Under the pieces are notes generated by a model, which had not been told where the DNA came from, made no database searches, and was given only the letters and a program-made list of their open reading frames with translations. From Methyloversatilis sp. RAC08 (lineage in GTDB: Bacteria; Pseudomonadota; Gammaproteobacteria; Burkholderiales; Rhodocyclaceae), in NCBI RefSeq assembly GCF_001713355.1, contig NZ_CP016448.1:3224001-3288000 (forward strand): a stretch of 64,000 nucleotides of DNA. Reading direction: 5' to 3'. Of this stretch, positions 30,770-38,152 are shown one piece after another; the stretch's first letter is position 1; every line of letters starts with the position of its first letter. The position numbers and the translations under genes were made by a program.

Positions 30770-30881
30770 GCGGGAGCGGCGGCCTGTTGGAGCGGCCCCT
30801 GTGGGAGCGGCGGCCTCGCCGCGATCGTGCCGCGATGGTCGCATTGCAGCGTGCGTATCGCGGCGAGGCCGCCGCTCCCAC
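30770..30881. repeat. REP-like palindromic element 1
   Basis: Arms 30801-30825 and 30857-30881 are exact reverse complements; the left arm begins GTGGGAGCGGCGGCCTCGCC. A 31-bp core separates them, giving 81 bp. A partial extra copy of the arm start lies at 30770-30798. It sits just after rarA in the gap before the converging HAD gene. The arm resembles REP sequences known from Pseudomonas and relatives. No transposase of the REP-associated type is in the window. Confidence 0.88.
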
Positions 30882-31104
30882 AGGATGCACCCCACAGGAT
30901 GCACCCCACAGGATGCACCCCACAGGATGCACCCCACAGGATGCACCCCACAGGATGCACCCCACAGGATGCACCCCACAGGATGCACCCCACAGGATGC
31001 ACCCCACAGGATGCACCCCACAGGATGCACCCCACAGGATGCACCCCACAGGATGCACCCCACAGGATGCACCCCACAGGATGCACCCCACGGGATTTAC
31101 CCCA
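30881..31104. repeat. Tandem array, 15 perfect copies of a 14-bp unit plus one degenerate
   Basis: Unit CAGGATGCACCCCA repeated without error from 30881 to 31090 (15 x 14 bp), then one diverged copy (CGGGATTTACCCCA, 31091-31104). It begins exactly at the last base of REP element 1; the unit contains CCCACAGG, matching the sequence at the end of the REP arm. Open frames across it are artefacts of the repeat. There are no spacers, so it is not CRISPR. Confidence 0.95.
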
Positions 31105-31154
31105 CATGTACCGCTCCCGCAGAAGGCGCGCCGCTCATCGCCCGCTGGCGGGCC

Positions 31155-34116: not shown

Positions 34117-35529
34117 TCAGGCTGGCGCGTCGCGCACCCGCAGTGCGCCGTCGGTGTCGCCGGCTTCGATCAGCCCAAGTTCTTCGTAGCGACGCAGCTT
34201 GCGCCACAACGACACGCGGTCGATGCCGAGCAGGCGTGCCGCCATCGCGCGATTTCCACCGACTTCGGCCAGCACGTCGAGAATGTGCGAGCGCTCGACG
34301 CATTCCAGTGTGCGGATTTCGCCGCCCACGCGGGCGCCCGCGTCGCGATGAACCGCCGACGCGGCAAATCCGGCCGGCAGATCGGCTTCGCCCAGCATGC
34401 TGCCGCCGGCCAGCGCCACGCCGCGCTCGATCAGGTTTTCCAGTTCGCGCACATTGCCGGGGTAGTCGTAGGCACACAGTTTCTGCATCGCCGACGGCGC
34501 AATGGCCGTGACCGGCTTGCCCATCGCCAGTGCGGCGCGGCGCAGGAACTGCTGCGCCAGCAGCGGGATGTCTTCGCGCCGCGCGCGCAGCGGCGGCAAC
34601 TGCAGCGTGACCACATTGAGCCGGAAATAGATGTCCTGCCGGAACGTGCCGGCATCGACCGCGCTGCGCGGTTCGCGATTGGTGGCCGCGAGAAAGCGCA
34701 CGTCGGCGCGCACCGGCTCGGTGCCGCCAACCCGCATGTACTCGCGCTCCTGCAGCAGGCGCAGCAGCTTGACCTGCATCGCCGCCGACATTTCGGTCAC
34801 TTCATCGAGAAACAGCGTGCCGCCCTGCGCCGCCTCGACCAGGCCGCCGCGCGATTGCTGGGCACCGGTGTAGGCGCCCTTTTCGTGGCCGAACAGTTCG
34901 TTGGCCAGCAGGTCTTCGGTCAGCGCGCCGCAATTGACCGCCACGAACGGCCCGCCGGCGCGTCGGCTGTGCGCGTGCAGGTGGCGCGCCAGCAACTCCT
35001 TGCCGGTGCCTGTTTCGCCGACGATGAGAACGTTGCAGTCGGTCGGCGCCACGCCGCGTGCGATGTCGAGAATGGCGCGCATGCCGCCGTCGCGCGTGAT
35101 GATGCGTTCTTCCGCCGCCTGCTCGACCAGCTGGCGCAGGCGGTGATTTTCGGCGCGCAGCTGCGCCTTGTCGGCGGCTTCGCGCACCAGCTTGCGGACC
35201 TCGCCCAGCCGGAAGGGCTTGGAGATGTAATAGAAGGCCCCGGTGCGCATCGCCTCGACCGCCGATTCGGTGGTCGCGAAGCCGGTCACCACGAGCACCT
35301 CCATGTCGGGCCAGGCTTCGCGCGCGCGGCGCAGCAGATCGAGGCCGTCCATGCCGGGCATGCGCACGTCGGTCAGCATCACCTCGAAATCGCGCGTGCG
35401 CAGCAGCGCCAGCGCACTGTCGCCGTTGTCGGCCGTCGTGACGTCGAAGCCGTCGCGCCGCAGTGCGGTGGCCAGGCCCTCGCGGGCGACCGCCTCGTCA
35501 TCGACCAGCAGTACGCGTGCTCCACTCAT
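34117..35529 (-). CDS. Sigma-54-dependent NtrC-family response regulator
   Basis: 470 residues: receiver with Asp54 (VMLTDVRMPGMDG); AAA+ domain with Walker A GETGTGKE (171-178), the sigma-54 contact loop GAYTGA (218-223; GAFTGA in most members) and Walker B GGTLFLDEV; C-terminal Fis-type helix-turn-helix (NRAMAARLLGIDRVSLWRKL). It overlaps the upstream kinase gene by 4 nt. A candidate sigma-54 promoter lies about 1.6 kb away at 37153, next to that kinase gene. Confidence 0.94.
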   Translation of the reverse strand: MSGARVLLVDDEAVAREGLATALRRDGFDVTTADNGDSALALLRTRDFEVMLTDVRMPGMDGLDLLRRAREAWPDMEVLVVTGFATTESAVEAMRTGAFYYISKPFRLGEVRKLVREAADKAQLRAENHRLRQLVEQAAEERIITRDGGMRAILDIARGVAPTDCNVLIVGETGTGKELLARHLHAHSRRAGGPFVAVNCGALTEDLLANELFGHEKGAYTGAQQSRGGLVEAAQGGTLFLDEVTEMSAAMQVKLLRLLQEREYMRVGGTEPVRADVRFLAATNREPRSAVDAGTFRQDIYFRLNVVTLQLPPLRARREDIPLLAQQFLRRAALAMGKPVTAIAPSAMQKLCAYDYPGNVRELENLIERGVALAGGSMLGEADLPAGFAASAVHRDAGARVGGEIRTLECVERSHILDVLAEVGGNRAMAARLLGIDRVSLWRKLRRYEELGLIEAGDTDGALRVRDAPA

Positions 35530-36953
35530 GATGTTTCCTCCGCAGGTATCCAGACCGTGACGCAGGCGCCGCCGTCCGGTTCGCGCGCGATGCTGACGCG
35601 GCCGCCGTGTTCGGCCGCGATTTCATGCACCACGAACAGCCCGAGTCCGGAGCCCTTGCCGACCGGTTTGGTCGTGAAGAAAGGGTCGAACACACGCTGC
35701 AGATCGCCTTGTGCAATGCCGGGCCCGTTGTCGCTCACGTCGATCGCCGTGCCGCCGTCGCGCTGCGTGCCGCTGACCACGATGTGCGGCGTGGTTGCGG
35801 TTTCGTCACAGGCTTCGAGTGCATTGCGGATCAGGTTCAGAAGCGCCTGCTGGATGCGCTGACCGTCGGCGTGGATTTCCAGCGCCGGGTCAATGTGCAG
35901 CGTGACGGCGTCACCGGCATCCGGCTGTTCGGCGCGCAGCAGTGCGATGGTTTCTTCGACCAGAGGCCGCAGCGGCTGGCGCACCAGCGCAAAGTGGCTG
36001 TCGCGCGCGAAGGCGAGCAGCGTGCGCACGATGCGCTGGGCGCGCTGCACCTGATCATCGATCTGTTCGACGAAGGCATTGAGCGGCGTCGAGTCGCCGC
36101 GCTCGGGCTCCTCGAGCAGCAGCTGGGCGTTGAGCGAAATATTGGACAGCGGGTTGTTCAGTTCGTGTGCCACACCGGACAGCATGGTGCCCAGCGAGGC
36201 CAGCCGTGCGGTGCGCAGCACGGCCAGCTGGCGTTCTTCGAGGTCGCCGAGCGCGCGGTTGAAGGCGTCGACCAGCGCCGCGATCTCGTCGTCGTGATCA
36301 CGTGGCGTGAGGCGCGCCAGATTGCCGGTACCGACGCGCGCCAGATCGCTTTCGACCTCGCGCAGCGGCACCACGACGCGCCGTGTCACCAGCTGGCCGA
36401 TGCCCAGCACCAGCACGATGGCGGCGAACATGATCACGTACAGCCGCGATTCCTGGCCGGTGAGCGCGCTGCGCATCGCTTCGCGCGCCTGGTCGGACAG
36501 GCGCTCGCTGCTGTCGAACACCTGTTTGCCGACGGCCTCCATGCGCTCTTCCAGCGGCGAGATCGGGTCGGTCGGCTTGATGCGGCGCTGCAGGCGGTCA
36601 TCGAGCAGGTCGCGCCAGTCGGACAGCGACTGCTCGAGTTCGTCCAGCGCGAACCCGGGTGCGGCACGCTGCATCAGCGGGCGGTCGCGCTCGATCAGCG
36701 CCAGCGCCTCTTCCGCCTTGCTGACCGCCGCCTTCAGTTCCGACGGCTTGCGGAACAACAGGTAGTTCTTCTCCAGCCGACGCGCCTCGCGCACCACGTC
36801 GTGCATGCGCGTGACCTTGTATTCGTCGTCGACATGCGACAGCAGGTCGCGCACCTGTTCAAGTGCGGCGAACACGAGCAGCACGAACAGGCCGCCGAGC
36901 ACGATGTAGCCGAGCAGGATCTTGCCGTGCAGCGATCGGGGCAACAGTTTCAT
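35526..36953 (-). CDS. Membrane sensor histidine kinase, partner of the NtrC-type regulator
   Basis: About 475 residues. Membrane segment 1 near residues 10-32, a helical periplasmic sensor region of about 160 residues, membrane segment 2 (LYVIMFAAIVLVLGIGQLV), HAMP, HisKA with the phospho-His in SGVAHELNNPLSN, and HATPase with DNGPGIAQGD and GKGSGLGL. ATG 36953 begins MKLLPRSLHGKILLGY just before the first membrane helix; ATG 36962 and 37022 are in frame, and none has a clear ribosome site. The ligand is unknown. Confidence 0.88.
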   Translation of the reverse strand: MKLLPRSLHGKILLGYIVLGGLFVLLVFAALEQVRDLLSHVDDEYKVTRMHDVVREARRLEKNYLLFRKPSELKAAVSKAEEALALIERDRPLMQRAAPGFALDELEQSLSDWRDLLDDRLQRRIKPTDPISPLEERMEAVGKQVFDSSERLSDQAREAMRSALTGQESRLYVIMFAAIVLVLGIGQLVTRRVVVPLREVESDLARVGTGNLARLTPRDHDDEIAALVDAFNRALGDLEERQLAVLRTARLASLGTMLSGVAHELNNPLSNISLNAQLLLEEPERGDSTPLNAFVEQIDDQVQRAQRIVRTLLAFARDSHFALVRQPLRPLVEETIALLRAEQPDAGDAVTLHIDPALEIHADGQRIQQALLNLIRNALEACDETATTPHIVVSGTQRDGGTAIDVSDNGPGIAQGDLQRVFDPFFTTKPVGKGSGLGLFVVHEIAAEHGGRVSIAREPDGGACVTVWIPAEETS

Positions 36954-36962
36954 CAATTGCAT

Positions 36963-36990
36963 GTTGAAACGTTGCGTTGCGGATTTCAAC
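36963..36990. promoter_or_regulatory. Inverted repeat upstream of the sigma-54 promoter, possible activator site
   Basis: GTTGAAA (36963-36969) and TTTCAAC (36984-36990), a 7-bp inverted repeat with a 14-bp gap, about 165-190 bp upstream of the -24/-12 element. The distance suits an enhancer for an NtrC-type activator, and it overlaps the start of the kinase gene. Inferred only. Confidence 0.35.
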
Positions 36991-37152
36991 GGTAATGCGA
37001 ATGGCGCATCGGTCGGTTTCATGCGGGTTTTTGGTGATCGGACAGGCATGAATAGCCCGGGTCGCTGCAATCTGCAACGTCCGCTGAGTGCGAAAACCTG
37101 GGCTGGATGGGCGAGCATAATGAAATCAATGACTTGAAATATTTCGTTGAGC

Positions 37153-37168
37153 TGGCACAACCCCTGCT
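37153..37168 (+). promoter_or_regulatory. Sigma-54 (-24/-12) promoter
   Basis: TGGCACAACCCCTGCT: TGGCAC at -24 and TGC at -12, with exactly 10 nt between the invariant GG (37154-37155) and GC (37166-37167). One mismatch to the TTGC -12 consensus. RNA would start near 37179. No protein gene of credible quality begins downstream before the terminator at 37283. Confidence 0.65.
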
Positions 37169-37178
37169 AGAACTTCCA

Positions 37179-37316
37179 TGCCAGCTCTGTGGCCACCGCC
37201 CGACGGCTCCTCGGACGGTGGCCGGTGGCAGGGGGGCAATGGGGAGGCCGGTTTGCCAGCGGATTGAACCGGTTCTTTTGTGCGGCTCGCGACTCCTTCG
37301 CGAGCCGTTTTTCTTT
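37179..37316 (+). ncRNA. Candidate sigma-54-dependent small RNA, about 138 nt
   Basis: The region from the predicted sigma-54 start to a strong terminator folds into three hairpins. Hairpin 1 has outer stem GGCCACCG (37191-37198) with CGGTGGCC (37216-37223) and an inner CCGA/TCGG stem. A G-rich single-stranded stretch follows (37229-37246). Hairpin 2 pairs CCGGTT (37248-37253) with AACCGG (37267-37272). Hairpin 3 is the terminator. Loops 1 and 3 both carry CUCC(U), able to pair with Shine-Dalgarno sequences. It lies beside an NtrC-type two-component system, an arrangement comparable to crcZ beside cbrAB in Pseudomonas, though no sequence relation is claimed. Confidence 0.55.
37283..37316 (+). 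terminator. Strong intrinsic terminator
   Basis: CGGCTCGCGA (37283-37292), loop CTCCT, TCGCGAGCCG (37298-37307), then TTTTTCTTT. A perfect 10-bp GC-rich stem with a U-tract. No protein gene ends upstream on this strand, so it must end a non-coding transcript. Confidence 0.88.
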
Positions 37317-37501
37317 GTCCCTTGTTTCTACCCTGTGTCGGCCCTTTCTTGCCTTTCGCGATGCGTCCGGTCAGGCCTCGGGCCGCAGGGCGATGCCGGA
37401 AAGCTCGACCGCGCATATCACCAGACCTTCGCGCGCCGGTTTTAACGGATAATTCGCGGCCCCCTCCCGTCGTCGCGCCGTGCCTGCTGTCCGAACCTTC
37501 G

Positions 37502-38152
37502 ATGCCTGAGTCTTCCGTCCCGCTGCTCGAAACCCACGCCCTGACCTGCGTGCGCGGTCGCGCGCGGCTGTTCGCCGGGCTCGACCTGGCGGTCGGCGAA
37601 GGCGAACTGCTGCATGTGGCAGGTGCCAACGGCAGCGGCAAGACCAGCCTGCTGCGCATCCTGTGCGGCCTGTCCGAACCGGAATCGGGCGAGCTGCGCT
37701 GGCGCGGCCAGCCGGCCCGTTCGGTGCGCGACGACTGGCGCGGCGGCCTGCTCTATCTGGGTCACCGCAACGGCGTGAAGGACGATTTCACGCCACTCGA
37801 GAATCTGCACGCGAGTGCAGCCATCGCTGGCGAGCGCATCGCCGACACGGTGCTGCTCGAAGCCTTGGTGGACATCGGTCTGGCCGCGCGCCTCGATGTG
37901 CCCGCGCGCAGCCTGTCGCAGGGGCAGCGCCGGCGCGTGGCGCTGGCGCGACTGCTGGCCGATACGCGCAGCGCGCTGTGGATACTCGACGAACCCTTCA
38001 CTGCGCTCGACGTGCGCGCCGTCGGGGTACTGGCGGCGGCGATGGCTGCGCATCTGCGCCGTGGCGGCGCGCTGATCTACACCACTCACCAGCCGGTGGA
38101 TATCGACGCCGAGCGCCGGCAGACACTCAATCTGGACGACTACGCATGCTGA
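37502..38152 (+). CDS. ccmA: CcmA, heme exporter ATPase
   Basis: ATP-binding subunit of the CcmABCD release complex in System I cytochrome c maturation. 216 residues from ATG 37502. Walker A GANGSGKTS, signature LSQGQRRRVALARLL, Walker B LWILDEPFTALD, and switch His in THQPVD. Upstream in-frame codons to 37280 lie in the terminator region and are not used. First gene of the ccmABCDEFGHI run. Confidence 0.95.
   Translation: MPESSVPLLETHALTCVRGRARLFAGLDLAVGEGELLHVAGANGSGKTSLLRILCGLSEPESGELRWRGQPARSVRDDWRGGLLYLGHRNGVKDDFTPLENLHASAAIAGERIADTVLLEALVDIGLAARLDVPARSLSQGQRRRVALARLLADTRSALWILDEPFTALDVRAVGVLAAAMAAHLRRGGALIYTTHQPVDIDAERRQTLNLDDYAC

Follow-up and report, generated by a model that had tools for sequence, protein, structure and literature searches.

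A conserved candidate sigma-54-dependent small RNA gene beside an NtrC-type two-component system in one betaproteobacterial genus

Introduction

Few small RNAs (sRNAs) are known that are made by sigma-54 polymerase and tied to an NtrC-type regulator of their own (GlmY, CrcZ, and Qrr), and these are gammaproteobacterial. The Qrr sRNAs of Vibrio lie near the NtrC-type activator LuxO, use sigma-54, and consist of stem-loops with a terminator. In the Enterobacteriaceae, glmY is under the two-component system QseE/QseF (GlrK/GlrR), whose NtrC-type regulator acts with IHF on the sigma-54 promoter of the sRNA (PMC6075780). In Proteus mirabilis, glmY-qseE-qseG-qseF forms one operon (PMC8745638). CrcZ and CrcY of Pseudomonas, controlled by CbrA/CbrB, start from a GG-N10-GC promoter, and an IHF site lies between it and the enhancer subsites; CbrB also drives protein operons (PMC6296734). 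CbrAB is described as confined to pseudomonads (PMC8871633 and PMC6296734). Finally, the S17/bdhR1 sRNAs of several Betaproteobacteria carry C/U-rich single-stranded sites that are predicted to keep ribosomes from binding (PMC11722255).

The window, the 64,000-nt stretch of DNA that was analysed, holds a candidate sRNA whose layout is that of GlmY beside QseE/QseF (PMC6075780) and which resembles CrcZ/CrcY (PMC6296734) in its GG-N10-GC promoter and in an IHF-like site between enhancer-like dyad and promoter. It lies divergent from its kinase and regulator genes, in contrast to glmY in the P. mirabilis operon (PMC8745638). Its C/U-rich loop is predicted to target ribosome-binding sites as those of S17/bdhR1 are; S17 differs in its sigma-70-type promoter, its place beside coq7, and its processing by RNase E (PMC11722255). 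The GlrR cut-off is 763 bits and the LuxO cut-off 800 bits, of which the neighbouring regulator reached 345 and 319; it fell below the cut-offs of its best 25 of 122 NCBIfam families, including AtoC, NtrC, ZraR, GlrR, and LuxO. The enhancer here is of the form GTTGC-N5-GCAAC; within 36950-37180, neither the GlmY-type motif TGTC-N10-12-GACA nor the CbrB subsite TGTTAC/GTAACA was found.

The RNA likewise lacks AANAANAA, the CA motif of CrcZ-type RNAs. No Rfam family was reached. The best sub-threshold match was sX11 (26.5 of 70 bits), the GlmY/GlmZ covariance model gave no match, CrcZ was not among the Rfam matches, and Qrr was absent from those up to an E-value of 10. The RNA scored 20 of 112 bits for the Burkholderia family ncS037, far below the cut-off. 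We recognised no description of the RNA or of its promoter module in the open-access literature searched. The locus adds a betaproteobacterial candidate, whose regulator and enhancer differ from those above, to the sigma-54-dependent sRNAs beside their NtrC-family systems, which are a kind rather than one homologous family.

Results

A preliminary description, made from the sequence of the window, had proposed a -24/-12 promoter with a 10-nt GG-GC spacing in front of the RNA. Sigma-54 sites with at most two mismatches numbered 35 in the whole window against about 40 expected, and the motif count, being no higher than chance, was dropped as promoter evidence. Because the motif by itself is at chance level, the promoter call is based on conservation of the -24/-12 element among 12 aligned genomes. 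All seven positions of the -24 box (TGGCACA) are invariant, as are five of the six in the -12 block, while none of the three spacer positions is. In the 12-row alignment, mean pairwise identity is 0.52 upstream, 1.0 in the -24 box, 0.39 in the spacer, and 0.97 in the -12 block; it is 0.81 across the RNA, where 77 of 139 positions are invariant, and 0.35 just past the terminator. This profile of promoter boxes, RNA, and a sharp 3' drop marks a promoter with a discrete candidate transcript. The preliminary description had named an unconserved -24/-12 element in close relatives as evidence against its proposal; the relatives keep the element, and its GG-N10-GC spacing in the window is as described. 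Coordinates are collected in Table 1.

Table 1. Features assigned at the sRNA locus and at a second promoter of the same type in the same genome.
Feature	Position	Strand	Basis or remark
NtrC-type response regulator, presumed activator	34117..35529	-	470 aa; Pfam Response_reg, Sigma54_activat, HTH_8
Membrane sensor histidine kinase (HAMP, HisKA, HATPase)	35526..36962	-	start 36962 or 36953
Second enhancer-like dyad GTTGCGGATTTCAAC, near kinase start	36976..36990	.	GTTGC + TTTCAAC in 12/12 rows
Enhancer-like dyad CGCTGCAATCTGCAACG (GTTGC-N5-GCAAC type)	37063..37079	.	~74 nt before the -24 box; TGCA-N3-TGCAACG part at ~75-90 nt
IHF-like site AATCAATGACTTG	37124..37136	+	identity 0.81 in the block, 0.52 and 0.48 in the flanks
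Sigma-54 promoter TGGCACAACCCCTGCT (-24/-12)	37153..37168	+	GG-N10-GC; conservation in 12 aligned genomes
Small RNA, ~139 nt, apparently non-coding	37178..37316	+	conservation, covariation, lack of a common frame
Hairpin 1, two-part stem	37179..37238	+	both-side changes: 7 upper-stem pairs, 1 lower-stem pair
Loop segment GGCUCCUC (anti-Shine-Dalgarno; presumed seed)	37205..37212	+	8/8 positions invariant, 12 genomes
Hairpin 2, loop with AGCGGA, conserved UUCUUUU at end	37244..37277	+	mostly invariant sequence
Hairpin 3 = intrinsic terminator and U-tract	37282..37316	+	12/12 genus loci
Acetamidase/formamidase-family gene, Tat signal by eye	L169 5901-7388	-	promoter G000:C1:1989449-1989526

Upstream of the promoter, TGCA-N3-TGCAACG, part of the dyad nearer the -24 box, is kept in all 12 rows. 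A stricter dyad, GYTGC-N5-GCARC, was found between kinase and promoter at 9 of 12 loci in the genus, at 19 of 21 in the rest of the family, and at 15 of 26 in the order; it is missing from the other 11 order loci, and the 19 family loci include seven with no good sigma-54 site. Since dyads recur between the kinase and a sigma-54 site outside the genus, the promoter can be tied to the neighbouring regulator. The third upstream element fits the IHF consensus WATCAANNNNTTR.

The proposal of about 138 nt with three hairpins held, all three being present in a predicted transcript of about 139 nt. The segment first given begins at 37179; the transcript more likely starts one position earlier, at 37178, which is a purine (A or G) in all 12 genomes. 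The predicted fold of 37179-37316 has an energy of -70.4 kcal/mol and a z-score of -2.91; among 200 shuffles, 2 folded as well. The stem and U-tract described at the end of the RNA correspond to an intrinsic terminator at every genus locus; here the stem (37282-37308) has 11 pairs and a 5-nt loop, followed by a broken U-tract, TTTTCTTT. As shuffles of the terminator region yield terminator-like sites equally often (one observed, mean of 0.9 in shuffles), the terminator call is based on conservation.

Compensatory changes in related genomes, a suggested check on the RNA, were seen in the upper stem of hairpin 1. In a 38-pair structure, picked from per-sequence folds of the same rows on which it was later tested (11 distinct rows), both-side changes occurred at 8 pairs against 4.4 +/- 0.9 in shuffles, none of 500 reaching that number, and pairing is kept in 98.1% of cells; slid control structures paired in 36-49% of cells. 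Seven of the eight doubly changed pairs belong to that upper stem. Its three-pair lower stem is weaker, with 84.4% of cells pairing. Hairpins 2 and 3 hardly vary, and covariation is therefore uninformative for both.

The preliminary description had also placed CUCC(U), complementary to Shine-Dalgarno sequences, in the loops of hairpins 1 and 3. This stands for hairpin 1, where the loop segment is invariant among the 12 genomes, but not for hairpin 3, where CUCC occurs in 5 of 12 (the window's own clade only) and GCAA or GAAA in the other seven. The hairpin-1 loop is thus the sole conserved anti-Shine-Dalgarno candidate. Its core, GCUCC, is predicted to be 0.62-0.89 unpaired. A U-rich stretch ahead of the terminator is also invariant, but just 0.19-0.28 unpaired by prediction. 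Judged by inspection, the invariant GGGGAG linker could pair with the hairpin-1 loop as a pseudoknot and so hide it.

The distribution of the element was narrow. With 37100-37330 as the BLAST query against 61 genomes (13 of the genus, including the window's own, a single contig of 3.94 Mb; 24 of other genera in the family; 24 of the order), it was found in 12 of 13 genus genomes (the own and 11 of 12 others) at 72-96% identity. The sole genus genome without it, G010, is 93% complete. BLAST found the RNA in none of the 24 genomes of other genera in the family. A match in one of the 24 order genomes was set aside, as it covers 22 nt of the IHF-like segment only, with no promoter and no RNA, and sits behind what by eye is a tRNA end. 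A covariance model of the genus RNA (R1) matched strongly in nine genus members only, among 249 family genomes. Of thirty weak rows, the 21 with loci lie outside the genus and look like chance; none has the arrangement, three showing a loosely sigma-54-like string at an unrelated place and one carrying GGCTCCTC far outside. The RNA sequence is confined to one genus.

Within that genus the neighbourhood is constant: the order regulator, kinase, RNA loop, ccmA is kept in all 11 relatives with the element. Kinase and sigma-54 activator are divergent from the RNA, as first described, and the same pair is found in each of these relatives. The regulator combines a receiver, a sigma-54 AAA+ domain, and a Fis-type HTH. 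Kinase identity is 81-99% in the genus and about 35-47% elsewhere in the family. Downstream, ccmA (NCBIfam CcmA) runs in the same direction as the RNA, its ATG at 37502 lying about 185 nt past the terminator. Elsewhere in the window, a tandem array of a 14-bp unit, CCCACAGGATGCAC, occupies 30877-31106 (16.4 copies, 98% match).

Outside the genus, the kinase served as the guide. It had matches in 45 of 249 family genomes, nine of which belong to the same genus as the window; a second search, made with a relative's kinase and a stricter cut-off, gave 26 of 399 order genomes, the own included. The comparison covered every non-genus family locus given, 21 in all (L064-L084), and 26 order loci (L143-L168), of which L156 coincides with L084 and L147 likewise comes from the family; the sigma-54 score and the terminator test were simple ad hoc rules. 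At seven family loci (genera g55, g67, and g83) a terminator stem begins 52-66 nt past a sigma-54 site. Six others (L078 and L080-L084) have a sigma-54 site and then an apparent protein gene, called by eye at L078 and L083 because the automatic test missed the frame. The seven of g77 (L064, L067, and L070-L074) have a dyad at the kinase start and no good sigma-54 site or terminated RNA nearby, and L079 starts inside the kinase.

All 26 order loci have a sigma-54 site scoring at least 18, located 137-264 nt from the kinase match, together with an ATG frame of 45 aa or more. Terminators are absent within 190 nt at all of them, and the terminator-like hairpin of L161 stands farther off, at about 224 nt. 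Frames of this length open at all 12 genus loci as well, so the terminator and protein likeness carry the distinction between RNA and protein. By eye, 22 of the 26 first frames, most of them encoding proteins of 54-72 aa, contain an N-A-(L/M)-A-(F/Y)-A-N-V-G-N-like segment, and the remaining four have a KVLLAVRE-like start. Behind the first gene lies a SulP-like gene or another membrane protein (L145). As a side observation, a small conserved protein (NALAFANVGN-like in those 22 of 26) is encoded by the first gene at L143-L168, 21-112 nt after the sigma-54 site.

The short RNAs of the family loci differ in what follows them. A convergent gene comes after the RNA at three of three g83 loci (RuvB in L075) and a convergent tRNA-Arg in one g67 genome, so the short RNA is no leader there; at two of two g55 loci a same-direction gene follows (antiporter-like by eye). 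The g55 and g83 RNAs (L065, L069, and L075-L077) share GCGGACAAC-AGGAGAUUC before the terminator. Their covariance model (R2) was strong at its own five loci only, among 249 genomes; weak matches in 26 further genomes (E 8.6e-5 to 0.01) were taken for terminators. Across these family genomes, R1 and R2 did not find each other's RNAs strongly. A scan of named genomes returned mostly unrelated kinases. Of nine of its loci that were read, two (L176, Desulfocapsa; L179, a gammaproteobacterium) also have a divergent sigma-54 site and then an apparent protein start.

A second promoter of the same type was found within the own genome. The pattern GYTGCNNNNTGCARC gave 35 rows (32 places) against 11 in a backwards control. 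A locus was at hand for 27 of these places. A sigma-54 site scoring at least 19 lies within 350 nt at just two of them, the sRNA and one other; several more have lower-scoring sites (17 to 18.5). That other place is the formamidase-family gene of Table 1, preceded by a GTTGC-N5-GCAAC dyad, an IHF-like site, and a sigma-54 promoter, at which the same regulator presumably binds. The dyad, IHF-like stretch, and TGGCA of this promoter recur in 6 of 13 genus genomes; the assignment of the gene behind them comes from the own genome.

Discussion

The central proposal of the preliminary description, a sigma-54-dependent structured sRNA beside a kinase and NtrC-type regulator, is borne out by its presence in 12 of 13 genomes, synteny in 11 of 11 relatives, covariation, the -24/-12 element, and the dyads with an IHF-like site. 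Judged from sequence comparison, the locus is almost certainly a real, conserved sigma-54 sRNA gene. We consider the best overall explanation (probability roughly 0.65) to be a free-standing anti-Shine-Dalgarno sRNA that acts in trans and is under the control of the regulator next to it. Conserved linkage and the shared dyad are the grounds for the presumed tie between regulator and RNA, and activation by this regulator is predicted with high confidence. The kinase would phosphorylate the regulator, which would then bind the GTTGC-N5-GCAAC dyads; IHF would bend the DNA, allowing the regulator to switch on sigma-54 polymerase. We regard this chain as very likely. A CUCCUC-type loop that is invariant and predicted to be exposed points to ribosome-binding sites as its partners: the hairpin-1 loop GGCUCCUC would pair in trans with sites carrying GAGGAGCC and block translation. 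Hfq would probably be involved, docking at the U-rich stretch before the terminator and at the U-tail. Action by such pairing is somewhat favoured; the loop never varies, so covariation is silent on its pairing with targets. Counting against the overall explanation are the confinement of the RNA sequence to one genus, its absence from G010, the order loci that lack the strict dyad, the mostly paired U-rich stretch, and the linker that could hide the loop.

Other explanations fit parts of these data. A small peptide could start at the ATG at about +61 (MGRPV...), which is present in 12 of 12 genomes, always at the head of a frame of 45 aa or more. Non-triplet indels, however, shift the downstream frame among the 12 genomes into different registers, and the frames read through the terminator to lengths of 45 to 265 aa. 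No frame is conserved in a common register across the 12 genus loci; the peptide was rejected on this ground as having next to no likelihood, in line with the earlier statement that no credible protein is encoded. More serious, yet still improbable, is a sigma-54 leader or attenuator of the operon for cytochrome c maturation (ccm), in which the terminator would work as a conditional switch. It would account for the direction of ccmA, the same in the own genome and in 11 of 11 relatives, and g55 offers a parallel in the same-direction gene behind its short RNA. Against it, the convergent neighbours at the g83 loci and in one g67 genome leave nothing to attenuate, the stretch past the terminator is unconserved, and the terminator stem is retained in minimum-energy folds.

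The RNA might instead bind something other than mRNA. Two GGA motifs (in GGGGAG and AGCGGA) are invariant in all 12 genomes, and short RNAs from two further genera keep GCGGACA ... AGGAGA too, as might be expected of an RsmY/CsrB-type sRNA that titrates CsrA. A CsrA-family protein was nonetheless found in none of 13 genus genomes, by a search whose control was positive in 3 of 14 named genomes, including E. coli. Lack of csrA makes such a sponge highly unlikely, and it was rejected. A decoy of the GlmY kind, binding another sRNA or an RNA-processing protein, draws more from the data: the layout equals that of GlmY beside QseE/QseF (PMC6075780), the structure is large and very stable, and hairpin 2 and the linker hold invariant segments. 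Elsewhere in the own genome, however, no relative of the RNA turned up, BLAST and the model each giving a single match, and we consider this decoy unlikely, if the least so of these four alternatives.

Beyond the free-standing anti-Shine-Dalgarno sRNA itself, the comparison with kinase relatives bears on its origin. The genus sRNA probably took over a promoter that drives a protein gene beside most other kinase relatives. Beside most of those in the order, the module would drive a small protein and then membrane-protein genes (e.g. a SulP transporter). Four genera lack such a gene directly behind the promoter, and their short terminated RNAs would differ between genera, with a core shared by two of the four. 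Regulatory RNAs may thus have been born, perhaps repeatedly, from a protein-gene promoter, and the genus RNA may have become a conserved regulator of C1 metabolism that reaches the ribosome-binding site of a methanol dehydrogenase. We put forward this combination, a swap of module cargo from protein to RNA plus a C1 regulator with the formamidase-family gene as a sister target, as a tentative and rather doubtful scenario. Relatives in which the equivalent promoter drives a protein offer a rare comparison for the origin of an sRNA gene. If the targets of the loop include C1 genes, the RNA would be a post-transcriptional switch for methylotrophy; our literature search found none described.

Candidate targets were sought through the perfect complement of the loop. 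GAGGAGCC, which includes a plain Shine-Dalgarno sequence, lies 1-10 nt before an ATG at seven places in the genome, against four for a backwards control. Four of the seven are plausible gene starts by eye (ClpP-like, ferritin-like, HEAT-like, and PQQ dehydrogenase). The last is a PQQ methanol/ethanol-family dehydrogenase (TIGR03075, 661.6 bits), with matches at 24 places in 12 of 13 genus genomes, 18 of which were compared in their start region. Eight of the nine genomes with a copy at least 90% identical have one copy with GAGGAGCC at the ribosome-binding site; the exception is G012, whose only copy, at a contig end, lacks it. Six second copies and three distant copies also lack GAGGAGCC. G010 keeps the site despite having no RNA. 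Among 43 crudely picked gene starts of the own genome, one pairs with the loop at least as well as the dehydrogenase start. A PQQ methanol-dehydrogenase-type gene as one target is a weak lead, and we think it unlikely.

Two further observations concern these genes. The adjoining paralogous PQQ methanol-dehydrogenase-type genes at G000:C1:3023595-3027321 (L292 and L304) have different ribosome-binding sites. The GAGGAGGAGCC form of the dehydrogenase ribosome-binding site is kept in eight of the nine genomes with a close copy.
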